In this document: piece by piece, positions 36,090 to 61,930 of the stretch
How the letters are laid out: every line of letters starts with the position of its first letter
How positions within the stretch are numbered: the first letter of the stretch is position 1
Source of the DNA: an uncultured Victivallales bacterium
GTDB taxonomy: Bacteria > Verrucomicrobiota > Lentisphaeria > Victivallales > UBA1829
Assembly (NCBI GenBank): GCA_944390735.1
Contig: CALXRL010000007.1
Location: forward strand, 62,001 to 126,000
DNA: 64,000 nt
Reading direction: 5' to 3'
Notes under the pieces: generated by a model
The model's database searches: none
Seen by the model: only the letters and a program-made list of their open reading frames with translations
What the model was told of the DNA's origin: nothing
Program-made: the position numbers and the translations under genes

Positions 36090-36172
36090 GAATCATGACC
36101 GGGGAGGGGAAGAGATCGGGCCGGAGCGGTCCGGAAACGGAAAATTGCAGCGGAGGCGGGACTCCTCAGACC

Positions 36173-42735: not shown

Positions 42736-43536
42736 ATGAAGAACATAATTCCTCTTGTGGTCTCGGTTGTTCTGGGACTTGCCGCTGTTTATCTGGTAAG
42801 CAAACTTCTGTTCGAAAAGGAGAAAACCGATACCGAGAACAAAGTTTCGGTGGTGGTTGCGGCACGGGCGCTGGATGCGCACGATGAATTGTCGCAGGGC
42901 TCCCTGACGTACAAGGACGTTCCGCAGTCGGCGGTTCCCCGGAACGCGCTGCTCTGGGAAAACGTGAGTCTGGCCTACGGGCAGCAGCTGCCCCACGCGG
43001 TTTCGCAGGACGATTACATCTTAATGACCGACATCCGGATTCAGACGACCCTCAGCGACTGTGCCCGTCAGGGGGAATGGACCGTTCCCGTCACCTTTTC
43101 CGATCCGGCGCTCGTCAAAATGCTGATGCCGGATGATGAGATCGCCATCATCTCCTCCTATGTTTCCCGGGATGTCGCCGTGGACAGAAATATGACGGTC
43201 AGCGACGGTTCCGGAGTGAAGATGACCGAATCGAGGGAGACCTCGGTTCTTCTGCCGTGCGTCCGGGTGATCGGCATTGCCAACGAACGCGGTTCCTTCC
43301 GGGAGGGCGGCAGTTCCGGCGGCACGATTTTTGTCTCTCTTCCGCCGCAGCAGGCGATGATCCTGATCGCGGCGCAGAGGGAATCCGAACTCTATCCGGT
43401 TCTGCGGAAGCGGAACGATTCCGCCGCGCTCAACCGGAAGGACGGCGGAGTGGTCAATGCCGAAACCTTTATGAAAATCCGCAAAGGGCTGGTTCCCGCG
43501 GAACTGCCCGCGGTTCCCAACAAAGATCATCGCTGA
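42736..43536 (+). CDS. cpaB: Flp pilus assembly protein CpaB (RcpC)
   Basis: 266 residues. A single N-terminal membrane segment (IIPLVVSVVLGLAAVYLVSK, about 4-23) is followed by a SAF domain: VVAARALDAHDELSQGSLTY and KDVPQSAVPRNALLW, the CpaB signature, then the RcpC-type domain with DPALVKMLMPDDEIAIISSY. CpaB helps the secretin and the inner platform assemble in the periplasm. It is the first gene of the operon. The ATG has GGAG 5-6 bases ahead; cpaC follows 13 bases after the stop. Confidence 0.87.
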   Translation: MKNIIPLVVSVVLGLAAVYLVSKLLFEKEKTDTENKVSVVVAARALDAHDELSQGSLTYKDVPQSAVPRNALLWENVSLAYGQQLPHAVSQDDYILMTDIRIQTTLSDCARQGEWTVPVTFSDPALVKMLMPDDEIAIISSYVSRDVAVDRNMTVSDGSGVKMTESRETSVLLPCVRVIGIANERGSFREGGSSGGTIFVSLPPQQAMILIAAQRESELYPVLRKRNDSAALNRKDGGVVNAETFMKIRKGLVPAELPAVPNKDHR

Positions 43537-43548
43537 GAGGTGTCGCTG

Positions 43549-45144
43549 ATGAGAACAATCCTGTTTACCGCTTTTGCCGTAGTGTTGCTTGCGCTGCCGA
43601 GTCCGGGATTCGGAGCGGAAACCGGGAATTTCGGAGGGAACGTCGCCTCCGGGGCCGTGGTGTCCCTGCCGCCGGAACGGGTTGCGCTTTCCACCGGGGA
43701 GATTCGGAAATTCGAGCTTCCTTTTGTCGTGGAGAGCGTCCGTTCGAGCACGGAGCATGTGCGCGTTTCCCGGAGAGAGGGACAGTCAATCGAACTGGAG
43801 GCGGTTTCCGCGGGAAGCGCGGTGGTAACCGTTGTCTCGGGGGAGCTCCGCAAGGAGTTTCAGGTGACGGTCTCCAGTTCCATCATGCCGGTTTACCGGG
43901 AGCTCAGCCGGGAGCTGGGGGATCTGCCGGAAGTCGGGGTGGAGCTCGACGGCAATCTCCTCACGCTGCGCGGAGAGATCACGAAAATCGTGCACTGGGA
44001 GTATTTCCGGAGGGTGGTGAAACGGTATGAGGACCGCTGTCGGAACTATGTGACCTTCCGTCCCGGTCCGGCTCTGTTCACCGAGTTGAAAAAACAGATG
44101 GAAAACGCCGGGTTCCAGGTGGGCGATTCGGTATCGCCGGATGCGCCGGGCAGTGTGAAATTTCAGGTTTCAAACGGGACGCTGACCGTTTCGGGCTGGG
44201 TGCTGTGCGAAAACGATATTGCGACCGTCAAACGGATTCTCGCCTCGCAGGTGTGGCTCTCTCCGGAGTGGAACGGCAACTCGATGAGAGCTGTGACGGA
44301 TCTGACGGTCGCGGATACCCAGCTGGATGTGGGAATCGTCTTTGTCGGCGTGACGCGCACGCAGCTGGAGCGGTTGGGCAACTCCTCCGCCGACGGAACC
44401 GTGCTTTCCTGGAATCTGATCGCCTGGTTCCGCGCTCTGGCGGGCGGTGCTCCGGATTCCCTCGCCGGAACGTCCGGCGGACAGGGACTCTACTCCTATT
44501 TGAATACCGATCTGAAAGGATCGCTCGTCTTTTTCGGAAACAACGGCATTGCCGATTTCCGGGACGGGGGACACGTCACATTGACCAGCAACAGCAAAAA
44601 CTTTGCCGTGTATGAAAACGGCGGTGCGCTGAATGTCAAGGTGTACAGTCAGGATACCGCTGAACTCAAACCCATCAATTTCGGATTGAAGCTGAAGGTG
44701 CGGGGCGGACTGATCCGCTCCAATGAGGTCCGCCTGGAGTTCGATCTGGAAAAGAGCCTTGCGCCGATCAAGCAGGATGAGGATTATTTCCAGCGTTCGA
44801 CGAAGACCACTGCGGAAATTGTCTGTCCGCTGAACAAGACGGCCGTGATTGCCGGTCAGCGCGAACTGACCTATTCCGGCAGCGGTCCCGAAGGCTACGC
44901 GTTTCTCCGGCATATTCCGGTAATCAGCTGGTTTGCGGCTTCCGAGGAGAATCAGGGGGAGGAACTTCAGCTGCTGATTCTTGCCTGTCCCCGGATTGCG
45001 AACCGGAAGGTGCAGATGACCTCTGTGCCGTCCGACGAGACGGCTCTGGTGGAAAAGACCGTTTCCCGTTCCGTCCGTGCCAAAGCGGAAAAGGCGCATG
45101 AACGGGAATCCCGGAACTGGTTCCTGAAACTCTTCACCTGGTAA
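43549..45144 (+). CDS. cpaC: Tad secretin CpaC (RcpA)
   Basis: Outer-membrane channel protein of 531 residues. Signal peptide at 1-22 (MRTILFTAFAVVLLALPSPG). The N-terminal pilus-formation domain (VSLPPERVALSTGEIRKFEL to VVTVVSGELRKEFQVTVSS) is followed by a BON-like part (VELDGNLLTLRGEITKIVHW) and the secretin core, ending with GFLRHIPVISWFAAS-like sequence (seen as YAFLRHIPVISWFAASEENQ) and LQLLILACPRI, the usual end of the CpaC secretin. The ATG at 43549 has GAGAGG 8 bases ahead; a GTG at 43540 is less good. It probably forms the pore through which the Flp pilus leaves. Confidence 0.88.
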   Translation: MRTILFTAFAVVLLALPSPGFGAETGNFGGNVASGAVVSLPPERVALSTGEIRKFELPFVVESVRSSTEHVRVSRREGQSIELEAVSAGSAVVTVVSGELRKEFQVTVSSSIMPVYRELSRELGDLPEVGVELDGNLLTLRGEITKIVHWEYFRRVVKRYEDRCRNYVTFRPGPALFTELKKQMENAGFQVGDSVSPDAPGSVKFQVSNGTLTVSGWVLCENDIATVKRILASQVWLSPEWNGNSMRAVTDLTVADTQLDVGIVFVGVTRTQLERLGNSSADGTVLSWNLIAWFRALAGGAPDSLAGTSGGQGLYSYLNTDLKGSLVFFGNNGIADFRDGGHVTLTSNSKNFAVYENGGALNVKVYSQDTAELKPINFGLKLKVRGGLIRSNEVRLEFDLEKSLAPIKQDEDYFQRSTKTTAEIVCPLNKTAVIAGQRELTYSGSGPEGYAFLRHIPVISWFAASEENQGEELQLLILACPRIANRKVQMTSVPSDETALVEKTVSRSVRAKAEKAHERESRNWFLKLFTW

Positions 45145-45159
45145 CAAGGATACGGGCGT

Positions 45160-46893
45160 ATGCTGCAGCTCAGAATTACAGGCGCGGACGGGGAAGCGAA
45201 ACTCTGTTCTCTGGACGGACGGAGCGTTCTGTCGATCGGCCGTTCGGAATCAGAGGATCTCTGTCTTCCGGACCGGAAGGTTTCGCGCCGTCATGCGAAG
45301 CTCTCCCTGGAGAACGGACGGTGCTTTCTGGAGGATCTTTCCAGCCGGACCGGAACCCGGGTGAACGGCGTTTCTCTTTCCAGCCGGACCGAAATTTTTC
45401 CCGGTGACCGAATTCAACTCGGGGAAACGGAACTGGTGCTGGAACGGATCGGAACCGATCCGGGCGAGGAAGTGAAGAAGTCGCCTGAGACCCGGAGTCT
45501 CTCCGCCGAACCGTCGGCGCGGGAGGAAAAGGGGGCCGGAACCGTTGCGCGGGAGGACCGGTCCGACCGGCATCTTCCGCTGTATGCCGCGCAGAGTTCG
45601 CTGGTGGCGTTGTACAGTGAAACCATGATCCGTCTGGCCCGGCAGGTGCAGAACCGTGTGCTGGAGCTTCTGAATATCGGCAACACGTCGGTGCGGGAGA
45701 TGACCAGCAGCGAAATGCGTCCGAAGGTGGAGAGCACGGTGGAACAGATTCTGAGGGAGATCCGTCATGAGATTCCTCCGGAGGTGGATACGGAGCAATT
45801 CCGGCGGATTCTGCTGGATGATCTGATCGGTCTGGGACCGCTCTCTCCGCTGCTGCGCGACCCGAATGTTTCGGAGATCATGATCAACGGTCCGGAAAAG
45901 ATTTTTGTGGAAAGCCGGGGACTGCTCTACCGGACCGCGGCAAAATTCAACGGGGAGATCCATCTTCAGTCCATCATTCAGCGGATTGTGGAGCCGCTGG
46001 GACGGCACATCGACGCGGCGTCTCCGATGGTGGATGCCAGACTGGAGGACGGGGCCCGGGTGAATGCGGTCATCCCGCCGCTGGCGCTTGACGGTTCGCT
46101 GGTCACGATCCGGAAGTTCCCGTCGAAAAAACTGACGGACGAGGATCTGATCCGGTTCGGCAGTCTGACCCGTCCGATGGCGCTGTTTCTCCGGGAGGCG
46201 GTTCGGGCCCGCAGGAACATTCTGGTGTCCGGAGGAACCGGATCCGGAAAGACGACGCTTCTGAATATTCTTTCGCAGTTCATCCCGGAGAAGGAGCGGA
46301 TCATTACGGTGGAGGATTCGGCGGAACTGAAACTCAGTCATGAGAATCTCTGCCGTCTGGAGGCGCGTCCGGCGAACGTGGAGGGACAGGGGCGTGTCAC
46401 GATCCGCGATCTTGTCATCAATACGCTGCGGATGCGTCCGGACCGGATCATCGTGGGCGAGTGCCGCGGCGCGGAGGCGCTGGACATGCTTCAGGCCATG
46501 AATACCGGACACGACGGCTCCATGACCACCTGTCATGCGAACAATCCGCGCGATGCGCTTTCGCGTCTGGAAAACATGGTCATGATGGCGGGATTCGAAC
46601 TGCCCTCCTCGGCGATCCGGGAACAGATTGCCTCGGCGATTCATCTGATCGTTCAGCAGACCCGTCTTCCGGACGGGTCCAGAAAGATCGTCAAGATCAG
46701 CGAAGTGACCGGTCGCGAAGGCAGTACCATTCTGCTTCAGGACATCTTCACGTTCGAGCAGGAGGGGTTCGATGAGAAGTTCCATGTGATCGGCCGTCAC
46801 ACGGCGACGGGCAATATTCCGAAGTTCATAGACGAACTCCGTCAGGCGGGGGATCTGGAACTGGATCTCTCGGTGTTTGTGCCGCAGGGATAG
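45160..46893 (+). CDS. cpaF: Tad ATPase CpaF fused to an N-terminal FHA domain
   Basis: 577 residues. Residues 1-105 are an FHA domain: [20 protein letters not shown], then [11 protein letters not shown] and SRTGTRVNG, which binds phosphothreonine. A Glu/Ser-rich linker follows, then the TadA-type ATPase from about 155 with Walker [10 protein letters not shown] at 358-366, Walker [19 protein letters not shown] and [15 protein letters not shown]. It drives pilus assembly on the cytosolic face. CpaF normally has no FHA domain. It precedes tadB in the operon. It would answer to a Ser/Thr kinase, and such a gene is at the end of the opposite operon. A second CpaF without FHA is at 54665. Confidence 0.88.
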
Positions 46894-46907
46894 AAAGGAG
46901 GTGCGGA

Positions 46908-47807
46908 ATGAATTCCGTTACAGTGCTGCAGCGTTACGGTGTGTATCTGCTGGTTCTGTTTGCCGTTGCGCTGCTGATTTACATTCTGATTTCGCTTCTT
47001 CAGTCGTTCAGTCTGGAGCATGCCGACCGGAAGAACCGGGAGGATCGCTCGGAGGGGGTGGCGAACAATGTCTACTACTTCATCGACCGCACATCGCTTC
47101 AGCAGATTCAGTTTTCCGCCGGGGTTCTGCTGGCGGGCGGACTGATTGCCGCCCTGGTGTTCTGTCAGGTGTACGAGCTTCTGGTGATTGTGCCGGCCGC
47201 GGCGGTTGCCTTTGTGCTGGGGCTTTCGGCGCCGTGGTTCTATTATTCGCGGAAGGCGCGCCGCCGCGCGGAACTCTTTGAGAACAGTATTCTGGATCTT
47301 TCGCTGGGGCTGACCAGCGGGCTTCGCGCCGGACAGGCGCTGCCGCAGGCGCTGGAGGTCTTCTCGCGCAGAAGCGAGGGACCGCTGAAAGAGGAACTGA
47401 TGATTGTGATCCGCGAGTACCGGCTCGGACTGGATCTTCCGGAGGCGCTGCAGCGGATGTACCGGCGGATTCCATGCGAGGATCTGCAGCTTCTGATCAT
47501 CTCCATCCGCCTGACGACGCAGTCCGGAGGGAGTCTGGTGGATGTGCTGGAGAAGATCACGCAGATGATCCGGGGTCGCACGGAATTTCAGCAGAAGCTC
47601 CGGGCGCTGACGGCGCAGGGACGGTTCGAGGCGCTGGCCATGTCGCTGGCTCCGCTGGCTGCCTTCACTCTTCTCTTTTTCATCAACAACGATCTGATGC
47701 TGCCGATGGTGCAGACGCTGATCGGCTGGTGTGCCATCGGCGTGATGCTGACGCTGGAGGCCATCGGATATTTTGTCATTCGGGCCATAGTCGACATCAA
47801 GGTGTGA
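46908..47807 (+). CDS. tadB: Tad inner-membrane platform protein TadB
   Basis: 299 residues with four membrane segments: one near residue 15, a pair at 65-110 and the last two at the C-terminal end. The T2SS-F domain lies at about 125-255: ENSILDLSLGLTSGLRAGQA, LPQALEVFSRRSEGPLKEEL and ISIRLTTQSGGSLVDVLEKI, the TadB signature. It makes the platform with TadC. AAAGGAGG lies a few bases before the ATG and 46908 follows cpaF by 14 bases. Confidence 0.88.
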   Translation: MNSVTVLQRYGVYLLVLFAVALLIYILISLLQSFSLEHADRKNREDRSEGVANNVYYFIDRTSLQQIQFSAGVLLAGGLIAALVFCQVYELLVIVPAAAVAFVLGLSAPWFYYSRKARRRAELFENSILDLSLGLTSGLRAGQALPQALEVFSRRSEGPLKEELMIVIREYRLGLDLPEALQRMYRRIPCEDLQLLIISIRLTTQSGGSLVDVLEKITQMIRGRTEFQQKLRALTAQGRFEALAMSLAPLAAFTLLFFINNDLMLPMVQTLIGWCAIGVMLTLEAIGYFVIRAIVDIKV

Positions 47808-47811
47808 GCGC

Positions 47812-48708
47812 ATGAAACAGATTTTTATCTACGCATTGACATTCATGGCGGTGATGCTGCCGACACTCTTTTTTGTGGTTCTGTCGGACCGTCCGGAACG
47901 GGAAAAGGAAAAGAAGGAGTCGCTTCCGCTGCTGTTCCGTCTGGTGAAACCGGCGACGGATCTTCTGGAGGCGGCGGGTACGGGAACTCTGATCCGGACC
48001 TTTCTGCCGGGCCATTCGCTGGCGCTTCAGAAGACGCTGACGTTCGCGGCGTTGAAACTGAGCGTGGCGGCGGTCTACTGCACCCAGCTGTTTCTGGGTG
48101 TGGTGTTTGCGCTTGCGGCGGCCTTGGTGACCTCGCTGCTGGTGGAACAGGAGAACCGGATGTCGATTCTGGTTGCGGCGCTGATTGCGGCGCTGATCGG
48201 AGGTAGTCTGCCGGGGATCGTGATCGGGAATCTGGCGCAGGCCAGACGGATGGCGATTCTGAAGGCGATTCCCTATTCCATCGACCTGATTGCCTCCGCG
48301 ATGCGGGGCGGTCTGGATTTTTCCGCGGCGATCCGCTTTTACGTCAAGCTGGGGATTGCGGGGCCGCTGACGGAGGAGTACTCGCAGATGCTCCGGGAAA
48401 TGGAGCTTGGTGTGATCCGGACCACGGCGCTTCAGAATATGGCGGAGCGCATTCAGATCCGGGAGTTCACCTCGTTTGCGGCCGCGGTCGTGCTGGGAAC
48501 CGAGCTCGGCGCGCCGCTGACGGACACCATGGAAATTCAGGGCGAGGAGATGCGCAAGGCACGGTTTGCACTGGCGGAATGCAAGGCGCAGCGGGCACCG
48601 TCGCTGATGCTGCTGCCGATGGCGCTGTTTATTCTTCCCGCGGTATTCATCATTATTCTGACACCGGTCTTTCTGAAAATGAAAGAGGCCGGCGTTCCGC
48701 TGTTCTGA
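47812..48708 (+). CDS. tadC: Tad inner-membrane platform protein TadC
   Basis: 298 residues, T2SS-F domain: IPYSIDLIASAMRGGLDFSA, RFYVKLGIAGPLTEEYSQML and AVVLGTELGAPLTDTMEIQG are the conserved stretches; membrane segments lie near residues 5-25, 85-125 and at the C-terminus (RAPSLMLLPMALFILPAVF). It follows tadB with only 4 bases between, and pairs with it as the assembly platform. Confidence 0.87.
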   Translation: MKQIFIYALTFMAVMLPTLFFVVLSDRPEREKEKKESLPLLFRLVKPATDLLEAAGTGTLIRTFLPGHSLALQKTLTFAALKLSVAAVYCTQLFLGVVFALAAALVTSLLVEQENRMSILVAALIAALIGGSLPGIVIGNLAQARRMAILKAIPYSIDLIASAMRGGLDFSAAIRFYVKLGIAGPLTEEYSQMLREMELGVIRTTALQNMAERIQIREFTSFAAAVVLGTELGAPLTDTMEIQGEEMRKARFALAECKAQRAPSLMLLPMALFILPAVFIIILTPVFLKMKEAGVPLF

Positions 48709-48718
48709 GGAGGTTGGC

Positions 48719-52641: not shown

Positions 52642-52843
52642 AAAGCGCAGCCTTGCAAGAAAACGCAGCATTCTTCTGGAATATGTGATTCTTCTCTGTT
52701 CGATTCTGCCTCTGGTGTTTGCCGCATCCGCCTCGGTCTATTCGCTGTCCGGGACGGCGGGCGGGTCCTTCGGGCCGATCGGAAAGGGGATTGTGGCCCT
52801 CTACCAGCGCATTGTCACCATCGTCTCCCTGCCGATCCCATGA
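52634..52843 (+). CDS. Small Flp-pilin-like protein at the end of the Tad operon
   Basis: 69 residues. The sequence ARKRSILLEYVIL has Glu and Tyr at positions 5 and 6 after a putative R/S cleavage, as in Flp pilins (processed G/xxxxEY), followed by a hydrophobic helix to about residue 40 and a short tail. It is clearly related in layout to the two pilins at 60000-60470 but not a close copy. It overlaps the previous gene by 8 bases and the next by an ATGA. It could be a minor pilin or an unrelated small membrane protein. Confidence 0.6.
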   Translation: MTEKRSLARKRSILLEYVILLCSILPLVFAASASVYSLSGTAGGSFGPIGKGIVALYQRIVTIVSLPIP

Positions 52844-53712
52844 CCATGACGCCCGGGGACTGGAAACAACTGCGCGACGCACCCGCGGAGAAACAGTCCG
52901 CCCTGCTGGCGGAATTCGATTCGGCGGGACTCTTCCCGGCTCCCGAAGAGGAGACCGGAGCTTTTTCGGACCGTCTGCATCGCCTGAACATCGAACTGGA
53001 AAGCCTGAGCCGGGGAGACTCCGATGTGCAGGATCTTCTCTCCTCTTCGCCGGAGATCCCCGCTTCTCTGCGCGCCGCAGCGGAGGAGCTGACGTGGAAA
53101 ATCTACCGCTTCCGCGCGGACTGGGTTCCGGGAGCCTTTTCTTCCCGGGAGACCGGGTTTTTCTCCGCGGGCGTTCTGCTGGAGGTCGATCATCTGCTTC
53201 CCCTGATCTTTCTTCACGGGGCGTTTGTTCGCCGGAACCGGAGAGGCGGGTATGACGCGGTCGAGACGCTCGCGCACGAGATGGTGCATGCGGTCCGCAT
53301 TGCATTTCCCGCATCGGCGTATGAGGAGTTGTTCCCCTGTCAGGTTCATGCGTCCCGTTTCCGCCGGATGGCGGGAAATCTGTTCCGGCACTGGAGTGTT
53401 CCGCTCTTCTTTTTCGGGGGGATTGCGGCATCCGCCGTTCTTGCCGCGATGTCATGCAATGGCTGGTTTCTTCCGCTGGCGCTGCCTCTGCTGACGGCGG
53501 TCCGGGAGGGGGAACTCAGACGGCGTTTCCAGAAGGCCTCATCGAATCTGCGGCTGGCCGGTGTGGAGGCGCTTCCCGTTCTGCTTCGGCTTTCCGACCG
53601 GGAGATCCGGGAGATCGCCGCGCTTTCTCCCGGAACCATTGCGGAAAAAGGAAATTCCTCTCCCCGCTGGCGGATGCTCCTGGATCGCTTCCGGATCCCG
53701 GAAGCGGAATAG
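52840..53712 (+). CDS. Membrane protein with HEMVH zinc-metalloprotease motif
   Basis: 290 residues. LAHEMVHAVR places H146, E147 and H150 in an HExxH zinc site; a third ligand could be E or H downstream, for instance in the EELFPCQVHA stretch at about 157-166, but I cannot be sure. Two membrane segments follow at about 187-225 (PLFFFGGIAASAVLAAMSCN, then FLPLALPLLTAV). No family is recognised. It is the last gene of the plus-strand Tad operon, with the ATG overlapping the pilin-like gene. It could process pilins or a regulator. Since the Tad prepilin peptidase in the window is TadV (an aspartic enzyme), this would be a second, different protease. Confidence 0.6.
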   Translation: MTMTPGDWKQLRDAPAEKQSALLAEFDSAGLFPAPEEETGAFSDRLHRLNIELESLSRGDSDVQDLLSSSPEIPASLRAAAEELTWKIYRFRADWVPGAFSSRETGFFSAGVLLEVDHLLPLIFLHGAFVRRNRRGGYDAVETLAHEMVHAVRIAFPASAYEELFPCQVHASRFRRMAGNLFRHWSVPLFFFGGIAASAVLAAMSCNGWFLPLALPLLTAVREGELRRRFQKASSNLRLAGVEALPVLLRLSDREIREIAALSPGTIAEKGNSSPRWRMLLDRFRIPEAE

Positions 53713-53750
53713 CTCCCCGTTTCGCGGAAGAGAACGGAGGGGGAGGGCAG

Positions 53751-53787
53751 GTCGCGGAAAAACGCCTAGGAGCTTTTCTCCCGCGAC
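53751..53787. terminator. Hairpin between the convergent Tad operons
   Basis: GTCGCGG (53751-53757) pairs with CCGCGAC (53781-53787), and GAAAA/TTTTC extend it with a 2-base bulge. It lies after the HEMVH gene and reaches into the last codons of the kinase gene, so it can act as a bidirectional terminator. Confidence 0.45.
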
Positions 53788-54668
53788 TTCTCCTGTTCAT
53801 GCGGATTCCTCCGAATGTCGCCGAACTCTTCGGGAAGCTCCATGGCATTCAGTTCCCGCAGAACGTCGTCGGCACTGGCCGGACGGAGAGCGGGCGTGCG
53901 CTCCATCATGCGCCCCAGCAGGACGGCAAGCTTGTCCGTTGCCGCCTGCCGCAGAAGATCAAGCGGAGGCGCGGATCGGTCCGTGAGAACGGCTTTGACC
54001 GCCCCGGTGAAACTGGCGGAGGGCCGGCGGTAGCGCCGTCCGGTCAGAGCTTCAAAGAGAACCAGCGCAAGACTGTACAGATCGCTTCGTCCGTCGAGAC
54101 GGGTGGAATCCAGCGCCTGTTCCGGCGAGAGGTAGGAGGCCGTTCCGAACACACGTCCCGGCTCCTCCGGATCATTCGGAAGTTTCGCCAGTCCGAGATC
54201 CCCCAGCCGGATGCTTCCATCGGCCATCCGCCACAGATTTTCCGGTTTGACATCCCGGTGCACGATTCCCCGTCTGTGCAGCGCCGAAAGCGCCAGCAGC
54301 GTCTCCCGTAGCAGCCGAACCGCCTCGGCAAGCGGAAGCACGGCTCCTCCGGCCAGGCGGCGCCGCAGCGTCCCCCGTTCCGCATACTCCATCACGGCAT
54401 ACGGAAGTCCCTGAACCGTCTCCGCCGATTCCAGAACGTGAATCAGATACGGCGAAAGATTCTCTTGCAGAACAGCCGCAATTTCGCGGAACTGGGAGAT
54501 CCGCGGATGCTCCTTCCGCAGAAATTTGACCGCGAGCGCTTTCCCGCTCTCCCGTTCGCGCACGAACCAGATCTCGGATTGTTCCCGGATGCGCAGCGGA
54601 CGGATCAGCTGAAAGGAGGCAATCTGTTCCCCCGCAAAGAAAAAAGCCGATGGACCCGAATCCTTCAT
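53766..54668 (-). CDS. Ser/Thr protein kinase in the Tad locus
   Basis: Cytosolic Hanks-type kinase of 300 residues with a complete catalytic core: the ATP lysine in ALAVKFL (about 45), HRRGIVHRDVKPENLWR with the catalytic Asp, DLGLAKLP in the place of DFG, GTASYLSPEQALD in the activation segment and DGRSDLYSLALVLFEALTGR. The glycine-rich loop (RPLRIREQSEIWF) is much degenerated. No membrane segment or PASTA domain. I start at MKDSGPSAFFF, overlapping the stop of the second CpaF gene in ATGA. With four FHA domains in the facing operon, this kinase is the obvious source of phosphothreonine. Confidence 0.88.
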   Translation of the reverse strand: MKDSGPSAFFFAGEQIASFQLIRPLRIREQSEIWFVRERESGKALAVKFLRKEHPRISQFREIAAVLQENLSPYLIHVLESAETVQGLPYAVMEYAERGTLRRRLAGGAVLPLAEAVRLLRETLLALSALHRRGIVHRDVKPENLWRMADGSIRLGDLGLAKLPNDPEEPGRVFGTASYLSPEQALDSTRLDGRSDLYSLALVLFEALTGRRYRRPSASFTGAVKAVLTDRSAPPLDLLRQAATDKLAVLLGRMMERTPALRPASADDVLRELNAMELPEEFGDIRRNPHEQEKSREKSS

Positions 54669-55741
54669 GATGGCCGTTCCGGAAGTTCCAGATGCAGAAT
54701 CTCCGCCTGAGAGCGGAACGTCGGTTCCTCTCCCGCGACGAAACGTCCCGTGACACTGCCGTCCGGCGCCACGGATTCCGTCTTCCACTGCATCAGGGTC
54801 CGCATCCGGTACTCTCCGTGTTCCAGCGGCAGCACTTCGGCGATTTCGACAATCTTGCGGGAGCCGTCCGGCAGACGCATGGTATGCACAACACAGTTGA
54901 TCGCCGACGCCACCTGCATCCGGATTGCACTCAGCGGCAGCTGAATCCCGCTCATGATCGCGCAGGTCTCCATTCGGCTGAGCGCGTCGATCGGGCTGTT
55001 GGCGTGGATGGTCGACATGGATCCCGAGTGTCCCGTGTTCATCGCCTGAAGAAGATCCAGCGCTTCCCCTCCGCGGATCTCGCCGATGACCAGCCGGTCC
55101 GGACGGAGCCGGAGCGATGCAATCACCAGATCCCGGATCGAAAATTCTCCCTGTCCGTTTTTGTCCGGCTTCCGTGTTTCGAAGTAGACGCAGTGTTTCT
55201 GCTGAAGCTGAAGTTCGCTGGCGTCCTCCAGCACAAGAATGCGGTCGTTTTCCGGGATCAGTCCGCTCAGGGCGTTCAGCACGGAGGTCTTGCCCGAGGA
55301 GGTTCCCCCCGAAACAATCACATTTTTCCGCAGTTTCACAATCGCATTCAGCAGAAGAACGCCCTCACGGGGAATGCTTCCGAACTGCTCCAGCTTCTCC
55401 ATCGTCAGCATCTCCTTCTTGAATTTCCGGATGGAGAGAATCGTTCCGCAGCGGCTGATCGGCGGAATGGTGGCATGCACGCGCGATCCGTCGGGCAGTC
55501 TCGCATCCAGATCCGGATGCGCCTCGTCCAGCTGGCGATCCACCGATTTGGCAATGTTGACCGCGGCCGCTTTCAGCTGCGCCTCTCCGGAAAATTTCGC
55601 GGCGGTTTCCTCCAGTCTTCCGTTGCGTTCAATATAGATCTGCGAAGGCCCGTTGATGAGAATTTCCGAGACATGGTCGTCCTCCAGATATTCTTTCACC
55701 GGCGCCAGAAACAGAACCAGAAACGATGCGTTTTCATTCAT
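54665..55741 (-). CDS. cpaF: Second Tad ATPase CpaF (without FHA domain)
   Basis: 358 residues, the standard TadA/CpaF catalytic part: HVSEILINGPSQIYIERNGR in the N-domain, Walker A GGTSSGKTS, PDRLVIGEIRGGEALDLLQA and HANSPIDALSRMETC. It is shorter than the FHA-bearing copy at 45160 and clearly a paralogue. I start at MNENASFLV with AAGGAG 10 bases ahead; the earlier in-frame ATG lies in the preceding gene. It overlaps the gene before it and the kinase gene after it by 4 bases. Two ATPases might serve extension and retraction or two pilus types. Confidence 0.88.
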   Translation of the reverse strand: MNENASFLVLFLAPVKEYLEDDHVSEILINGPSQIYIERNGRLEETAAKFSGEAQLKAAAVNIAKSVDRQLDEAHPDLDARLPDGSRVHATIPPISRCGTILSIRKFKKEMLTMEKLEQFGSIPREGVLLLNAIVKLRKNVIVSGGTSSGKTSVLNALSGLIPENDRILVLEDASELQLQQKHCVYFETRKPDKNGQGEFSIRDLVIASLRLRPDRLVIGEIRGGEALDLLQAMNTGHSGSMSTIHANSPIDALSRMETCAIMSGIQLPLSAIRMQVASAINCVVHTMRLPDGSRKIVEIAEVLPLEHGEYRMRTLMQWKTESVAPDGSVTGRFVAGEEPTFRSQAEILHLELPERPS

Positions 55742-56223
55742 GGAATCATCTCTCCTTTCCAATCGGGTGTGCGATCCCGCCGATAGGAAAATCCTGTCCG
55801 GTCCGTTTGAATCTTCCACAGAAGCAGGGTCAGTTCATATTCATCATTGCGAAACGTCAGAATAACCTGCGGCATCCGGTGCGCATCCAGCGTGATCTGT
55901 TTCTCCGGAATCCAGGAGCTGTTCTGCAGCCATGCGGAAAGCCGTCCGCGCGCCGAGACAAAATTCGATGCGATCTCCCCCGTGTACTCCCAGCTGTTCT
56001 CCGGACAGGCGGAACTGGTGATCCCGTCCGGAAGCCGGAGCGGCGGAAGGTCGCGCCGGACCGGGGTCCGTTCCGAAAGAGCGTCGTTTCCCTTCCGGCG
56101 GATTTGTGCTTCCGCATTCCCCTTCTTCTCTCTTTCCTGATCCCCGTACCGGAACAATGTCAGGCCCAGTCCGCCGAGGAACACCAGAAGAAACACCGCG
56201 CAGCAGAGGGAGAGACCCTTCAT
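55738..56223 (-). CDS. Small membrane-anchored protein of the Tad locus
   Basis: 161 residues. A transmembrane segment at about 3-23 (LSLCCAVFLLVFLGGLGLTL) is followed by a charged linker with basic residues and an extracytoplasmic domain of about 110 residues that I do not recognise (SWEYTGEIASNFVSARGRLS and following). I start at MKGLSLCCAVF, which overlaps the stop of the preceding pseudopilin-like gene; ATGA also joins the next gene, cpaF. It may be a TadF-like minor pseudopilin, but the Glu at +5 is absent. Confidence 0.6.
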   Translation of the reverse strand: MKGLSLCCAVFLLVFLGGLGLTLFRYGDQEREKKGNAEAQIRRKGNDALSERTPVRRDLPPLRLPDGITSSACPENSWEYTGEIASNFVSARGRLSAWLQNSSWIPEKQITLDAHRMPQVILTFRNDEYELTLLLWKIQTDRTGFSYRRDRTPDWKGEMIP

Positions 56224-56915
56224 TTGGAGGTGCTCCATTTCTCATATTTGTCGAACCGTTCATAGAAATTGATTTTCTTCGGTTCCTTTTCCTGTTCCAC
56301 GGTGTCGTCGGTATGTTTCGGATCCTCCAGAAGTTTCAGATTCCACTCCCCGGGATAACGGCTGCTCGCGGATTCGAATTTCCAGATGCTGTTTTTGACG
56401 AGAAGACTCGCATCCCAGTGCCGCTTGTCCGTCGCGGAGGCCTTGCTGCGCATGATGATGCACTGCGTGTAGCGGTTTCCGTACCGGGAGGAGGTCATCT
56501 GAAGTTCCGGAAGGGAAAAGGGTTTCTTCTCCCCGCGGGCGGTATAGGGCATGTTGATCCAGTTGTCCAGAAACCCCGGACGAGTTTCGTAAAGCGTGGT
56601 CCTCGAACCGATGAACTGAAGATAGGAGTGCTCGTCGTTCAGCGCCCGCTGCTGATTCGTGGTGATAAGCGTGGCCCGGGGAAACATTTCCAGCAGCGCA
56701 AGGGCGGCTGGAACGCGCATCGAGAAACGGTTGCCCGCCATCCAGACCCCCCAGTGATCCGCCGAGCGGAGATTCGTCGCATCCAGCGATTTCAACCCCA
56801 GCCAGAGAATTCCCCCGAGCGTCGCCATGTAGAGCGGAAGAACCAGCACAAATTCCATCAGAACGGATCCGCGCGTGGATCGGAAAAAAGAACGGTTGTT
56901 TCGGATTGTCTTCAT
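56220..56915 (-). CDS. TadE/TadF-like pseudopilin
   Basis: 231 residues. Near the N-terminus RGSVLMEFVLVLPLYMA has the G/xxxxEF processing motif of TadE-type pseudopilins with Glu at +5, followed by a hydrophobic helix; the soluble body is beta-rich (for example WGVWMAGNRFSMRVPAALAL). TadV should cleave it after the Gly. It begins at MKTIRNNRSF, four bases after the tadG stop codon. It is one of two TadE-like proteins in the operon (the other at 58632). Confidence 0.78.
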   Translation of the reverse strand: MKTIRNNRSFFRSTRGSVLMEFVLVLPLYMATLGGILWLGLKSLDATNLRSADHWGVWMAGNRFSMRVPAALALLEMFPRATLITTNQQRALNDEHSYLQFIGSRTTLYETRPGFLDNWINMPYTARGEKKPFSLPELQMTSSRYGNRYTQCIIMRSKASATDKRHWDASLLVKNSIWKFESASSRYPGEWNLKLLEDPKHTDDTVEQEKEPKKINFYERFDKYEKWSTSK

Positions 56916-56919
56916 TCGA

Positions 56920-58635
56920 TCAGTGTCCCAGATATTCCCGGAGTTTATCCCATTGCAGTTTTCTGTCCTTGCCGCTGCTGTCCGTGATAAGGCCGGCCGG
57001 CGGATTGAGCTTTTCCCAGTCGGGGAGATTCTTCGATTCGATTTTTTTGCCGTCGGCTCCGACCCAGTTTTTCCGGTCGAGCATGATCTCCTTGAGGATG
57101 TTGCCGTTGCTGACCGTAAACGCCTGCGCGGGACCGGCGCCGACGCAGAGATCCCAGGCGTTGCGGACCGGAAGCAGAACGCCGTCCCAGTCGGTCTCCA
57201 CCAGATTCCACTCCTGATCCGCCGGGACGATGGTGTAACCGAGATTGTAATCGGAATTCTTGCGTTTTTTCTCCTTGTCCTTCTCATAGGATTTGAAGCC
57301 CGCCCGCGCGGAGGCGATGGCGCACATGTACTCCGGACGGTTCCCTCCCGCAACACTCGGATTGAACGCCGAAAGAATGGACGCCGCCGTCAGAGAGCGT
57401 CCCCCTCCGCTGAAAACCGAAAACGGATTGCTCGTCTTCCGCGCAATTGCCACCGTGATCGACCCGGCTTTCCCGAAAAACAGCGGCGTCAACATCAGCG
57501 GAATTGCCGGCGGAACCGCCAGCCCGATCGGAAGATCCTTCTTGATAAGCGGAAAGAAACTGTCATATCCATGGTATTTCGGATGTCCCCTCCCGCGGCC
57601 GCCGCCGGGAAAGAACGGCGGCATGTGAAGCTGAATCTCCCCGAGATTCACATGCACCCACCGGGTCCAGAACCAGTCCCATTCCGCATAAAGATGCGTG
57701 GCCGTCTGCCGGTAGACGCGCCAGAATCCCGCGATCCCTTTCCGGACGATCCAGTCATCCGTGCCGGGCCCGAACACCTTCTTCGGGGAGAAATCCTTCA
57801 GCGTGGGGTCCGCAAACGAGATGAATCTCTTTTCCGTATCCTCCGAGGGGATCATCGTGAGAAATGCCCCGGTCGGATTTCCCGTGGTCACATTGATCAT
57901 GTAATCATCCTTGCACTCCATCATGTTGGCGACCGCCACCTGCTGCGCGGCCTGTTTGACCTTCTCCGGCATCTCCTTGCGCAGACTGTTCAGTTTCGCC
58001 ATCATTTTCGTAATGTTCAAGCTGTATTCCAGGACCTTGGGCGTGTTGGTGATGGAGCCTTTCCCTTTGGCTTCCGCCGTGACGGTATAGGCCAGCTGTG
58101 CCAGCAGAAAACGGTCGAGGGTGCCCTGTCCGTTGAATTTTTTCGCCAGCTCCGGCACTCCGACCCCCGTTCCCAGGAGCAGCAGCGTGATGTTGCTGAC
58201 CAGAACATCGGTTCCGCAGTTGTAGTGAAGTCCGGGAACATGCATATGGCAGGGCTGATTCTTCTGCCGCACCATGTTGAAATCCTTCTGGAACTGGAGA
58301 AACACATATTTGCAGAAAAGATCCATGGCCAGATCCAGCGAGCGTTTCTGAAGATCAACATAGGTCCATGCCATCGCCTTGTTGACGGTCGCGATCCGGC
58401 TGAGATAATCCGCCTGCACCACGGCGGCGGAATATGCGGCGGCGTCCGCCGCATTCTGAAGTTCAATCTTGTTGCGCACCACCTCTCCGATTCCGTAGAT
58501 CCCGATGACCAGCAGGTAGATCGGCATGACAAACGCCAGCGTGATCGCCAGCGCCGCGCCTTTGCTGTCCACGGCCAGCTCCCGGCATTTGCCGGTGAAG
58601 ACCGTGAAGACTGTGGGCGATGCTGAGTATCTCAT
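56920..58635 (-). CDS. tadG: TadG-like pilus assembly protein
   Basis: 571 residues. The N-terminal Tad domain begins GAALAITLAFVMPIYLLVIG and has the characteristic LQNAADAAAYSAAV stretch at about 55-70. The long remainder is a soluble extracytoplasmic domain with several Pro/Gly-rich loops and no von Willebrand motif that I can see. TadG is a large membrane-anchored minor component that probably sits at the pilus base. The start codon overlaps the tadE stop in ATGA. Confidence 0.75.
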   Translation of the reverse strand: MRYSASPTVFTVFTGKCRELAVDSKGAALAITLAFVMPIYLLVIGIYGIGEVVRNKIELQNAADAAAYSAAVVQADYLSRIATVNKAMAWTYVDLQKRSLDLAMDLFCKYVFLQFQKDFNMVRQKNQPCHMHVPGLHYNCGTDVLVSNITLLLLGTGVGVPELAKKFNGQGTLDRFLLAQLAYTVTAEAKGKGSITNTPKVLEYSLNITKMMAKLNSLRKEMPEKVKQAAQQVAVANMMECKDDYMINVTTGNPTGAFLTMIPSEDTEKRFISFADPTLKDFSPKKVFGPGTDDWIVRKGIAGFWRVYRQTATHLYAEWDWFWTRWVHVNLGEIQLHMPPFFPGGGRGRGHPKYHGYDSFFPLIKKDLPIGLAVPPAIPLMLTPLFFGKAGSITVAIARKTSNPFSVFSGGGRSLTAASILSAFNPSVAGGNRPEYMCAIASARAGFKSYEKDKEKKRKNSDYNLGYTIVPADQEWNLVETDWDGVLLPVRNAWDLCVGAGPAQAFTVSNGNILKEIMLDRKNWVGADGKKIESKNLPDWEKLNPPAGLITDSSGKDRKLQWDKLREYLGH

Positions 58636-59312
58636 TTGGACAACGGATAAAATTTGGTTGCATACGGAATCGGAATCACACTGCTGGAGGTCAGCGTGAT
58701 ATACGGATAGCGGAGCTTCTCCTTCCCTCCAGCCCCGTTCACCTCCAGTTCATTGGCATAGCGGGCCAGCAGCGCGGGATTCCGTGCGTAGGAGTCCTCC
58801 TCCAGTTTCTTTTCCCACTCCTGCTCCTCCTTTGTCTTGTCTTTTTTGGCAAAGAAACTGATGATCCTGCCCGCAACCGGCACCAGAAGGAACATCTTGA
58901 ATTTGACGGTGCATTTGACTCCCCGCGGATCCAGATCGGTCAGCGGGATGTCCACTTCCACCTGCTGATCAAGATATTTGGTGTTCGGGAGACGTCCCCA
59001 GCCGTCGAGCAGAATGTATTTGTCCGCCGCCCGGTCTTTCGCATCGGCGGAATCCGCGGGAGATGCCGATACCACCGCAAGAATCCGTTTTGCCACGGCT
59101 TCCGCCCGGTTCTTTCTCTGAAGATTGTTCACCGTCATCGCCGACCGCGCCCCCATGTAGGCGGAATAATGCACCACCTGCCAGGTGATCATGATATAGG
59201 CAAACTGAACGGCAAACAGAAACAGGACAAACAGAATCGGAAAGCAGAGCACAAATTCCAGCAGCGCCGCTCCGTGTTCCGTTTTCTTGCCGTATTTTCC
59301 TGCGGATTTCAT
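58632..59312 (-). CDS. tadE: TadE-like pseudopilin
   Basis: 226 residues. GAALLEFVLCFPILFVLFLF near residues 14-33 is the TadE signature with G/AALLEF for cleavage by TadV; the body continues AVQFAYIMITWQVVHYSAYM and GARSAMTVNN, typical of TadE/TadG N-termini, then a charged soluble part with an EKKLEEDSYARNPALLARYA helix. Both ends overlap neighbours by 4 bases (tadV before, tadG after). Confidence 0.83.
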   Translation of the reverse strand: MKSAGKYGKKTEHGAALLEFVLCFPILFVLFLFAVQFAYIMITWQVVHYSAYMGARSAMTVNNLQRKNRAEAVAKRILAVVSASPADSADAKDRAADKYILLDGWGRLPNTKYLDQQVEVDIPLTDLDPRGVKCTVKFKMFLLVPVAGRIISFFAKKDKTKEEQEWEKKLEEDSYARNPALLARYANELEVNGAGGKEKLRYPYITLTSSSVIPIPYATKFYPLSK

Positions 59313-59857
59313 CGGGAAACCTCCAGAGAGTAGAGAAACTGAATCAGAAGATTCAGAAACAGTCCTGCCGCAATCGCCGCGCCGAAGGGTACCCGGCAGT
59401 TTTCGGTATCCGCGGGGGGCAGAGTGTTCCGTCCCTGTTCGCGGTCGTAGCGGAAATCAAACAGACACCGGCAGTAGTGTTTGACTCTGGCCGTGTTCAC
59501 TTTTCCGGCAAACAGCATCGCCAAAGCCAGCACGAGTCCCGCCATGGAAACCAGAAGAATCAGATTCAGCGTGTTGCCGGGACCCGCGATCAACCCGGCG
59601 GCAAAGAGCATTTTCACATCCCCCGCGCCCGCCGCCCGGAGAAAAAACGGAAGCAGAAGAAAAAGCGAGGAGAGAAACGCCGTTATCAGCGATCCCAGAG
59701 CATAATCCCTTCCGACGCCGAAGGCAATCGCCAGCATCACCAGAATTCCTCCGAACACCCAGCTGTTCGGCAGTTCGTGTTTCCGGAAGTCACGAATCGA
59801 CAGGCAGATCAGCCATGGCGTTGCCAGAATCAGTTTTCCAAGAGTCAGAAGATCCAT
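59309..59857 (-). CDS. tadV: Prepilin peptidase TadV/CpaA (A24 family)
   Basis: 182 residues, four or five membrane segments. The catalytic aspartates of the A24 family are D23 (SIRDFRKHELPN) and D80 in GAGDVK. It lacks the N-terminal methylase domain of PilD, as TadV does. It should cleave the Flp pilins and TadE-like proteins encoded here. The start is 17 bases past a strong terminator and the ribosome site is poor, so expression probably depends on read-through and is low. It overlaps tadE by ATGA. Confidence 0.88.
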   Translation of the reverse strand: MDLLTLGKLILATPWLICLSIRDFRKHELPNSWVFGGILVMLAIAFGVGRDYALGSLITAFLSSLFLLLPFFLRAAGAGDVKMLFAAGLIAGPGNTLNLILLVSMAGLVLALAMLFAGKVNTARVKHYCRCLFDFRYDREQGRNTLPPADTENCRVPFGAAIAAGLFLNLLIQFLYSLEVSR

Positions 59858-59873
59858 CCGAAGTTCGTTCCAT

Positions 59874-59907
59874 AAAAAAGACGGATCCCCGTTTGCGGGG
59901 CATCCGT
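59874..59907 (-). terminator. Intrinsic terminator between pilin genes and the tadV operon
   Basis: Reading the minus strand, ACGGAT (59907-59902) and CCCCG (59900-59896) pair with CGGGG (59891-59887) and ATCCGT (59886-59881), loop CAAA, one bulged base, followed by C and six T. This is the best intrinsic terminator in the window. It ends the pilin transcript; some read-through is needed for tadV and the genes after it unless a promoter is hidden here. Confidence 0.85.
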
Positions 59908-59935
59908 CCGGAGATTATTTGCCGCCGCCGGAAGA

Positions 59936-60187
59936 TCACTGATTGTAATTGTGCATCTTCTTTTCGTGGTCGTTGGCGGTTTGGATATCGCTGGCGGAGT
60001 TCTGTTTGAGTTCCTTCTGATAGTTTTCCGCTCCTTTGGCGTCGCTCATGGATTTGGTCGCCACATTCATCTCATGGGAGACGTTCTTTCCGAACATGAT
60101 GACGGCAACTACCACCGCGGCGGCAATCAGAACGGCAATGATGACATATTCCATCATCACGGCATGCTTTTTGACAAGGAGTCTCAT
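59936..60187 (-). CDS. Flp-type pilin (copy 2)
   Basis: 83 residues starting MRLLVKKHAVMMEYVI with GGAG 6 bases ahead (an ATG at 60199, MENP, contains that ribosome site). Cleavage before AVMMEY gives Glu5 and Tyr6 as in Flp pilins, although the residue before is His, not Gly. One hydrophobic helix (YVIIAVLIAAAVVVAVIMF) and a polar tail ending KKMHNYNQ. It is a close copy of the pilin at 60224 (the helix is identical and most of the tail). Two copies in tandem suggest high expression. Confidence 0.8.
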   Translation of the reverse strand: MRLLVKKHAVMMEYVIIAVLIAAAVVVAVIMFGKNVSHEMNVATKSMSDAKGAENYQKELKQNSASDIQTANDHEKKMHNYNQ

Positions 60188-60223
60188 CGGGTTCTCCATT
60201 CAGAAAGATGTTTCATTGATCAT

Positions 60224-60472
60224 TTATTTGTAATTGTGCATCTTCTTTTCGTGCTCGTTGGCGGCCTGGATATCGCTGGTGGTGCCGGATTTGACAGCCT
60301 CCTGGGAGTTCTCTGCACCCTTGGCATCGCTCATCGCCTGGGTCGCGACGTTCATCTCCTTGGAGACATTTTTGCCGAACATGATGACGGCGACCACCAC
60401 CGCGGCGGCAATCAGAACGGCAATGATGACATATTCCATCATCACGGCATGTTTTCTGGCAATGTGTTTCAT
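60224..60472 (-). CDS. Flp-type pilin (copy 1)
   Basis: 82 residues, MKHIARKHAVMMEYVI, the same hydrophobic helix as copy 2 and a tail ending KKMHNYK. GGAGGA sits 8 bases before the ATG, a strong ribosome site. It is the first gene after the promoter at 60515-60543. Putative TadV cleavage is between His8 and Ala9. Tails of both copies are rich in Ala, Asn, Gln and Lys (ATQAMSDAKGAENSQEAVKS), as in surface pilins. Confidence 0.82.
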   Translation of the reverse strand: MKHIARKHAVMMEYVIIAVLIAAAVVVAVIMFGKNVSKEMNVATQAMSDAKGAENSQEAVKSGTTSDIQAANEHEKKMHNYK

Positions 60473-60812: not shown

Positions 60813-61922
60813 ATGGGAAAAGGGTTGAAAAGCAAGACGGATGATGTGGAAAATCAGATTTGTCAACTGATTTTGAAGCGATCGCTGCCGGAGGGGGCGC
60901 AAATTCCGTCGGAATCCATGATCTGCGAGAATTATCATGTGAGCCGGATTACGGCGCGGCGGGCGGTGGCGAACCTGGTTTCGAAGGGGGTCCTCTACAC
61001 GGAGCACGGGAGGGGATCGTTCGTGAAATCGTTTGCACAGACGCAGAAGATTTACGGGGCGGATGTGCTGTCGCATACGATCGGACTTTTCATGCCGCGC
61101 GACGGCTATTTCATGTCGGCTGTTTACGGAGTGGAGGATGTGGTGAAAAATGCGGGATTCCGGATTTTTGTCTCGTCTTTTTCCTCGGAGAGTTTCCGGG
61201 ATCATGCGAAAGAGATTCTGGATTATGCGGCGGGGGGAATGGATGGAGCGATTATCAATACGCCGGAATCGTCGCCGTATCCATCGGAGTATCTGGAACT
61301 GTTTCAGAAGCTGAAGAATGTGGTGGTGTTCAACAGTCCGTCGCCGTCGCCGGAGATTGCGTCGGTCTCTTCCGATGACGTGGAGGGGATGACGCAGGTG
61401 ATGCGGTATCTGTTTTCCCTGGGGCACCGGCGGATTGCGTTTCTCGGGGGGGAGACGTGCGTGGCGACGACCCGGGATCGTCTATCCGGGTATCGTCAGG
61501 CGCTGATGGAGTGCCCCGGAGCGGAGAAGGAGATTGTTCTTTTCTGCAAGGAGTATGTGGCGGATGATGCCTGCCGTGTTCTGGGAAGATGTCTGGAATC
61601 CGATGCTCCTCTGCCCACGGCGCTGGTCTGTGCCACGGACGAACTGGCGTCGTATGCGTACCGGTCGCTGCTGAGTCACGGGATCCGGATTCCGGAGGAG
61701 ATTTCCGTGATTGGATATGGAAATCTGGATCTGGCCTACAAGCTGACGCCGCCGCTGACCAGTGTGGATCAGCATCCTCAGGAGCAGGGGCGTCTGGCCG
61801 GGGAACTGCTTTTGCGGCAGATTTTCCGGCAGGAGATTCCGGTTCGGCAGATGAGGGTCCAGCCAAGTCTGCATATCAAACAGTCCTGTGCCGTACCAAA
61901 ACAACAAGAAAGGAAAGGGTGA
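60813..61922 (+). CDS. GntR/LacI hybrid transcriptional regulator
   Basis: 369 residues. The N-terminal GntR-type winged helix is [20 protein letters not shown], then [20 protein letters not shown] and [20 protein letters not shown], up to about residue 75; the rest is a LacI-like sugar-binding domain ([20 protein letters not shown], then [40 protein letters not shown]). This combination is the AraR type. I start at the ATG at 60813 with GGGAG 8 bases ahead; a TTG in frame at 60759 lies in the promoter. A pseudopilin gene follows within 9 bases of the stop. It likely responds to a sugar released by the secreted enzymes after it. Confidence 0.9.
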
Positions 61923-61930
61923 CGGAACGT

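Follow-up and report, generated by a model that had tools for sequence, protein, structure and literature searches.

The window, a 64,000-nucleotide stretch of DNA from an uncultured Victivallales bacterium, contains two convergent Tad operons between positions 42736 and 60472. Pfam scans and a genome-wide search for FHA domains placed the operons and their core parts where an earlier note on this DNA had put them. The plus-strand operon opens with a CpaB/RcpC-like protein (42736–43536), which matches Pfam RcpC weakly (20.1 bits, below the cut-off) and is syntenic in the related loci designated type A below. A secretin (CpaC/RcpA, 43540–45144; Pfam Secretin) and an FHA-bearing motor ATPase follow, and then the platform proteins TadB (46908–47807) and TadC (47812–48708), both matching Pfam T2SSF. 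On the minus strand, the right end proposed in the note, 60472, coincides with tandem Flp major pilins (copy 1, 60224–60472; copy 2, 59936–60199). Both carry the EYVIIAVLIAAA motif and match Flp_Fap below the cut-off; they were detected by the genome-wide Pfam search, a pattern scan having missed both. Inward of the pilins lie a prepilin peptidase (TadV/CpaA, 59309–59857; Pfam Peptidase_A24), a TadE-like pseudopilin (58632–59312; Pfam TadE), a TadG-like protein (56920–58635; Pfam Tad), a second TadE-like pseudopilin (56220–56921; weak TadE match, below the cut-off) and P166 (55738–56238), a small protein that is syntenic in the window subtype of type A and matched no family in the Pfam scan. 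With a CpaF/TadA-type ATPase, TadB, TadC, secretin, prepilin peptidase, TadE/TadG and Flp pilin, the locus holds the components by which a Tad system is recognized. The Pfam scan found no TadZ/CpaE-type ATPase among the locus proteins; this protein is not treated as a feature of every Tad locus.

Two motor ATPases are encoded. FHA-CpaF (45160–46893, plus strand) joins an FHA domain (68 bits) to a T2SSE domain (210 bits), and CpaF2 (54665–55741, minus strand) is a second CpaF-like ATPase (T2SSE, 186 bits) that lacks an FHA domain and falls in its own clade. TIGR03819 was the top NCBIfam match for both, below its cut-off. The genome-wide search gave four FHA domains in the window, one on CpaF, one on P509 and two on P798. 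Of these, the CpaF domain (45232–45423) alone keeps the core phosphothreonine (pThr) residues: its Arg, Ser and His are intact, and the pThr site is preserved in all four members of the window subtype. Residue comparison showed key pThr residues to be missing from the other three. P509 (48719–50248, plus strand) is a membrane protein with a weak N-terminal FHA-like domain (23.3 bits) in which the pThr-site Ser is Gly; Thr residues in its linker (EE.TE.L, TRYAS) are kept in all four subtype members. P798 (50245–52641, plus strand), also a membrane protein, has domains at 50440–50634 (FHA-a, 68.4 bits) and 50755–50952 (FHA-b, 24.4 bits); FHA-a lacks the Asn-Gly motif with its Arg still present, and in FHA-b the phosphate-binding Arg is replaced by Ser. 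The FHA–CpaF fusion, the FHA membrane protein and the double-FHA protein of the note are therefore all real, though the domain of P509 is weak.

So is its Hanks-type kinase (53766–54668, minus strand; Pkinase, 112 bits), a short protein that probably starts at 54668 rather than 54788, a start that overlaps the CpaF2 stop. The catalytic Lys, HRD Asp and DFG Asp (DLG in the window copy) are kept in all four orthologues. The Gly-rich loop is absent, an RxRxxS-type loop standing in its place, and the alpha-C Glu position is occupied by Ile, Thr or Met. Neither CpaF2 nor a membrane protein at 52840–53712 (plus strand) was mentioned in the note. The latter has an HExxH motif kept in 4/4 members, is exclusive to the window subtype and matched no family in Pfam or NCBIfam. 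Its gene occupies the position after the double-FHA gene, where a PP2C phosphatase is often found in other type-A loci. We considered whether it is a degenerate PP2C; the conserved HExxH and the lack of a PP2C family match leave that idea unsupported, and its predicted model (pLDDT 48) was too poor for a structure search. No PP2C was found in the window locus or in the loci of its subtype, and no Thr repeats of the kind described below were found in the window locus or the subtype's kinases. The window module is a reduced version of the type-A module. With its short soluble form and no Gly-rich loop, local PP2C or Thr repeats, the kinase would be an atypical enzyme, or else a partner that docks on the FHA motor.

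The note had named confinement of the association to this one genome as grounds for abandoning its reading. That ground falls away: we found 20 type-A loci across Victivallales, their CpaF proteins forming one clade (support 100). Because the arrangement recurs across the order, it is more than chance. A kinase is linked in 17 of the 20, the remaining three being on truncated contigs; a PP2C is present in 14 loci, its motifs intact in the copies examined for them; and most loci carry a second CpaF-like ATPase, CpaF2 forming a separate clade from the FHA-CpaF proteins. Two sets served as controls. The sister FHA-CpaF type in Victivallales, type B, had no kinase within 10 kb at any of 29 loci, 18 of which have < 8 kb on one side; the loci of the whole comparison are mostly from draft metagenome-type assemblies. 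CpaF loci without an FHA domain had a kinase in 0 of 43 cases. The difference in linkage between type A and the controls is significant (Fisher 3e-9; 2e-5 after dereplication by hand, with group counts set from trees). The CpaF FHA domain itself also differs: Arg, Ser and His are present in 20/20 type-A proteins, and the Arg is missing from 29/29 of type B. The type-B membrane protein nevertheless keeps a canonical FHA domain despite having no linked kinase. We do not claim coevolution of the FHA Arg with a linked kinase, because on the tree the two are inseparable from descent (two usable contrasts, sign test p=1).

The type-A kinases also carry candidate targets. A Thr motif occurs outside the catalytic domain 25 times against 0.3 expected, with a pattern that was defined only after the sequences had been inspected. 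The copies are spread over 11 of the 22 kinases in the type-A set, and 24 other kinases have none. The set includes one possible duplicate and three kinases from another contig (G009:C253) that lie outside the 17 linked loci and mostly cluster with non-Tad kinases; since these were left in, the count is conservative. One control kinase, L030 (G016:C77), turned out to be in a Tad locus, a location predicted from the tree and then confirmed; the pattern does not occur in it, and the zero count for the controls therefore stands. Type-A kinases derive from several kinase clades, many resemble PknB in architecture, with an extracytoplasmic part anchored in the membrane, and in two loci an FHA domain is fused to the kinase.

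Taken as a whole, these results are best explained, we think with somewhat more confidence than doubt, by a Tad lineage that has its own Thr-phosphorylation module, made up of a kinase, usually a PP2C, and FHA readers on the motor and on two membrane proteins, which together would act as a switch on the motor. With a kinase, the usual phosphatase and a motor fused to a pThr-reading domain, type-A loci probably encode a pilus with a protein-phosphorylation switch. The note had proposed threonine phosphorylation as the control of pilus assembly or retraction. For the locus type, control by phosphorylation gains support from the joint presence of kinase, PP2C and intact FHA motor, which is not seen in two control sets, and from the Thr motifs carried by many of the kinases; for the window locus it is weakened by the lost Gly-rich loop and alpha-C Glu, the missing PP2C and the degeneracy of three of the four FHA domains.

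What we observed is which genes are present, how they are linked, which residues and motif repeats they carry and how they group into clades; from this we infer phosphorylation, FHA binding and an effect on the pilus, most likely in the following course. An envelope or contact signal would lead the kinase to phosphorylate Thr motifs, chiefly those flanking its own catalytic domain. The FHA domains of the CpaF hexamer would bind the phospho-Thr, as would FHA-a of the double-FHA protein where intact, and binding would recruit or gate the CpaF motor. PP2C would reset the switch, and CpaF2 may power another stroke. More tentatively, and with rather more doubt than confidence, we suggest that type A is a self-contained phospho-switched pilus. 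In it the kinase writes and PP2C erases pThr on the kinase-flanking repeats, the motor FHA domain reads it, and CpaF2 provides distinct motors in place of a single bifunctional CpaF, the kinase of the window subtype having been rewired to a minimal form without a Gly-rich loop.

The most serious alternative is that the window-subtype kinase is a pseudokinase-like scaffold docked as a structural part on the FHA motor, with the FHA domains acting without phosphate, as in EssB–EssC of T7SSb, where the EssB pseudokinase docks on an FHA domain (PMC11217815). That precedent, the loss of the Gly-rich loop and alpha-C Glu, the lack of flanking Thr repeats and of a local PP2C, and the degenerate FHA domains all favour it. 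We nevertheless consider it unlikely, given that Lys, HRD, DLG/DFG, Asn and SPEQ are conserved in 4/4 orthologues that are ∼60–64% identical to the window copy, that dN/dS is 0.16–0.33 and that the pThr site of the CpaF FHA domain is intact throughout; it would also leave the canonical sister loci unexplained. Less probable still is that kinase and PP2C serve transcription or general envelope signalling and are merely co-inherited with the pilus, the FHA domains of the locus being structural. The PknB-like, membrane-anchored kinases could be used in general signalling, their origin from several clades fits, and archaellum ArnA and ArnC/D, in the available part of that account, use FHA and kinases on expression (PMC5300886). 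An intact pThr site on the motor itself in 20/20 type-A loci, the FHA–kinase fusions within two of them, and Thr motifs that are absent from 24 other kinases make such a reading improbable. Chance neighbourhood in a kinase-rich genome, where ∼13–15 kinases per 4.2 Mb give a ∼12–14% probability of one within ∼20 kb, is rejected as extremely improbable, since a kinase is linked in 17 of 20 type-A loci and in neither control set (within 10 kb for type B), and a PP2C is linked in 14 as well.

A phospho-switched type-A lineage would bear on how Tad pili alternate between extension and retraction. According to recent structural work, a single CpaF is bifunctional, and in the part available the FHA domain of class III CpaF has no tested role (PMC12019362). 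With kinase, phosphatase, reader and candidate target motifs all encoded by one Tad lineage, the question can be tested directly with purified parts.

FHA-CpaF and FHA-rich Tad systems are prior knowledge. The former was published as class III CpaF, mostly from betaproteobacteria, and shares the FHA–linker–ATPase architecture of type A (PMC12019362); most of the proteobacterial FHA-CpaF proteins that we examined have Lys for the Arg and/or no Ser, and mostly no kinase nearby. Kil of Myxococcus and Bdellovibrio is a Tad-like system for contact-dependent killing (PMC8460266, PMC12075869). It has a Tad core, an FHA-fused CpaF and several further FHA proteins, as the window does, and a phospho-signalling cascade has already been suggested for it (PMC8460266). 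Of the note's view that a standard Tad locus has neither kinase nor FHA domain, the FHA part holds only to some extent. Our literature search found no report of a kinase or phosphatase linked to a Tad locus. Kil differs in that a single ATPase is reported, against two in the window with CpaF2 in a separate clade, and no linked kinase is reported, none lying within 10 kb in two Myxococcaceae loci examined; the Myxococcus CpaF also falls elsewhere in the tree, outside the type-A clade. Type A suggests where the missing signalling partners of Kil in predatory bacteria might be sought.

To our knowledge, the FHA protein of the archaellum network is not fused to the motor. That network (ArnA FHA, ArnC/ArnD kinases) shares with type A the control of a type-IV-pilus-like machine by FHA and Hanks kinases, and differs, in the part of the account available, by acting on archaellum expression (PMC5300886). 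A kinase/FHA logic has been proposed for T7SSc–T7SSe, which share an N-terminal FHA domain on the secretion ATPase and, in some types, a linked kinase and PPM phosphatase (PMC11217815); unlike type A, these Gram-positive systems use an FtsK-type ATPase and no pilus motor. For T6SS such a logic is established, and the type-A switch on the motor would resemble its PpkA–Fha–PppA pathway. There, kinase, PP2C and FHA reader are encoded alongside the secretion machine, and Fha binds pThr of TssL, activating secretion (PMC3953482). In type A, unlike T6SS, the machine is a Tad pilus and the reader is part of the motor, and no PP2C was found in the window locus. If our reading is true, then among envelope machines pili would share with T6SS and T7SS a kinase/FHA switch.

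Pfam scans of the translated genes, together with a genome-wide FHA search that placed four of the genome's 12 FHA domains within this locus (42736–60472), bear out the gene content described in the earlier note, namely a Tad pilus locus carrying FHA domains and a Hanks-type kinase. From 42736, the plus strand encodes, in order, CpaB/RcpC (a weak match), a secretin, the FHA–T2SSE motor ATPase CpaF (45160–46893), two T2SSF platform proteins, an FHA-like transmembrane protein (P509; 48719–50248) and a transmembrane protein with two FHA domains (P798; 50245–52641). Downward from 60472, the minus strand encodes two Flp pilins, a prepilin peptidase, TadE, TadG, TadE, a small uncharacterised protein, another T2SSE ATPase that has no FHA domain (CpaF2; 54665–55741) and the kinase, which begins with the ATG at 54668, so that its start and the stop of CpaF2 overlap. 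CpaF2, the Flp pair and an HExxH protein at 52840 extend the earlier gene list; no TadZ/CpaE was detected by Pfam among the locus proteins scanned. The HExxH membrane protein (52840–53712) lies between the two operons and has no Pfam or NCBIfam match; its motif is strictly conserved, and it is seen only in the subtype to which the window belongs, where it comes after the 2xFHA gene. Just upstream of the locus, a 1758-aa open reading frame (36095–41371), whose product contains the sugar-binding domain of glycosyl hydrolase family 2, is unrelated to the pilus. At 61589–62722 there is a pseudopilin-like protein (25 letters of its terminal sequence not shown), of a type common in Lentisphaerota.

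The close relatives are Victivallales/Lentisphaeria genomes. FHA-CpaF was searched for across 41 genomes, and annotation of the fetched loci revealed two Victivallales classes, type A (20 loci) and type B (29 loci). Type-A loci contain CpaB, secretin, FHA-CpaF, TadB, TadC, an FHA and a 2xFHA transmembrane protein, TadE/TadG/TadE, prepilin peptidase and mostly CpaF2, which is missing at its usual position in G013:C6. Type-B loci contain FHA-CpaF, TadB and TadC, mostly with one more FHA protein where the contig extends far enough. In an ATPase tree built by a quick method, type A, type B and CpaF2 form separate groups, each with SH-aLRT support of 100. Tad pili have been described with one bifunctional ATPase, whereas type-A loci add CpaF2, a clade of its own. 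The window's genome carries two further FHA-CpaF Tad loci, a type-A locus that includes PP2C and a canonical kinase (G000:C68; L001, L063) and a type-B locus (G000:C90; L002); cross-talk between these and the window locus is possible. In another type-A locus (L113, ∼5.6–6.4 kb, G001:C2), the CpaB gene is broken up over three open frames that overlap, suggestive of a frameshift or an assembly error.

Of the 20 type-A loci, 17 have a linked kinase, 2 to 19 kb away from CpaF; the contigs of the remaining three (G009:C281, G042:C31, G043:C198) are truncated. No kinase was found within 10 kb in the 29 type-B loci (one lies at 12.9 kb), at least 8 kb of flank being available on both sides in 11 and on at least one side in 24; nor was one found at 43 CpaF loci from many phyla without detected FHA. 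The contrast is significant (Fisher P = 3e-9; 2e-5 after near-copies were grouped by hand), and chance would place a kinase within ∼20 kb of ∼12–14% of loci. The type-A kinases derive from several clades and vary in position: some precede CpaB, others follow CpaF2, and those of G002 and G010 are fused to an FHA domain. A previously unplaced kinase on G016:C77 grouped in the kinase tree with that of G000:C68, and its contig, when read, encoded prepilin peptidase, TadE, TadG, TadE, PP2C and the kinase. PP2C genes occur in 14 type-A loci, counting that of G006, which is on a second contig together with 2xFHA and CpaF2 genes; the sequences inspected have the usual motifs (DGMGG, MGAT/MGTT, GDSR, SDG).

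The phosphate-binding Arg, Ser and His of the CpaF FHA domain are kept in all 20 type-A loci, and the Arg is replaced by Ser, Ala or Thr in all 29 of type B. Throughout type A, the Arg of the second FHA in the 2xFHA protein is replaced by Ser, or in one case by Ala, and in the window's subtype the remaining two FHA domains are likewise degenerate. The membrane-protein FHA is canonical in most type-B loci, and Myxococcaceae FHA-CpaF keeps the Arg yet has no kinase within 10 kb; an FHA reader can therefore exist without a linked kinase. Because the tree offers only two usable independent contrasts, the correlation between Arg and kinase is by itself no evidence. In proteobacterial FHA-CpaF domains, Lys mostly takes the place of Arg and/or the Ser is missing.

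Short repeats are present in the regions around the catalytic domain of many type-A kinases (e.g. TEVTMVDAPG, TEMTMVP, ETALTIDQIP, TALTLDSPVP). The pattern T-x-[MLAVI]-T-[MIL]-[VITDM], chosen post hoc after inspection of the sequences, has 25 matches, spread over 11 of the 22 kinases in the type-A set, against 0.33 expected from shuffling; 24 other kinases have none, with 0.39 expected. Among the other recognised type-A locus proteins it matches once, in a CpaB; the G016:C77 kinase has a related repeat, DVT[IL]. The repeats differ in position between kinase clades, which argues for selection acting on them; we read them as putative autophosphorylated docking sites for FHA.

The earlier note proposed that threonine phosphorylation switches the pilus. 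This proposal is borne out in part, and best in the type-A sister loci by their kinase, PP2C and FHA residues; we consider a kinase/PP2C/FHA-motor mechanism reasonably probable. It is least certain in the window's own subtype (the window, G005:C2, G013:C6 and G027:C50), because there the kinase has its Gly-rich loop replaced and the αC Glu lost, and no PP2C was found in the four loci. These kinases are short (∼280–300 aa), without long tails or Thr repeats. Structure prediction gives them a kinase fold (pLDDT 90.6; best PDB match PknB). In this subtype the kinase might instead be a pseudokinase scaffold, a live rival to which we give a lower probability: Lys, HRDVKP[ED]N, DLG/DFG and SPEQ are retained, and dN/dS of 0.16–0.33 indicates purifying selection, weaker than that on the CpaF motor and TadG.

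Beyond Victivallales, a planctomycetotal Tad locus (L134, 2.6–11.4 kb) has FHA-CpaF, TadB, TadC, two FHA transmembrane proteins and a kinase in which the stretch NELTVTD precedes the catalytic domain. Four Bdellovibrionota loci (L167, L183, L185, L168) have FHA, 2xFHA and PP2C-like genes, along with a CpaF joined to a ParA-like domain. In L183, L185 and L168 (∼8.9–11.2 kb) the fusion partner is a ParA/TadZ-like ATPase at the N-terminus of CpaF, and ∼5 kb upstream, adjoining FHA proteins, is the PP2C-like gene, whose GD motif is degenerate.

The earlier note held that standard Tad loci have neither kinase nor FHA. The FHA part does not stand, since FHA-CpaF has been published as class III CpaF (PMC12019362), and the Kil system is FHA-rich, with a phospho-cascade suggested by its authors (PMC8460266). 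As to the kinase, the literature searched showed neither a kinase nor a phosphatase linked to a Tad locus, an absence that is weak, as only openly licensed papers were covered. By the tests run, the window locus is a Tad system outside Kil, because it has two ATPases and a different CpaF clade. In its working, the module most resembles the PpkA–Fha–PppA pathway (PMC3953482) and T7SSc-e (PMC11217815).
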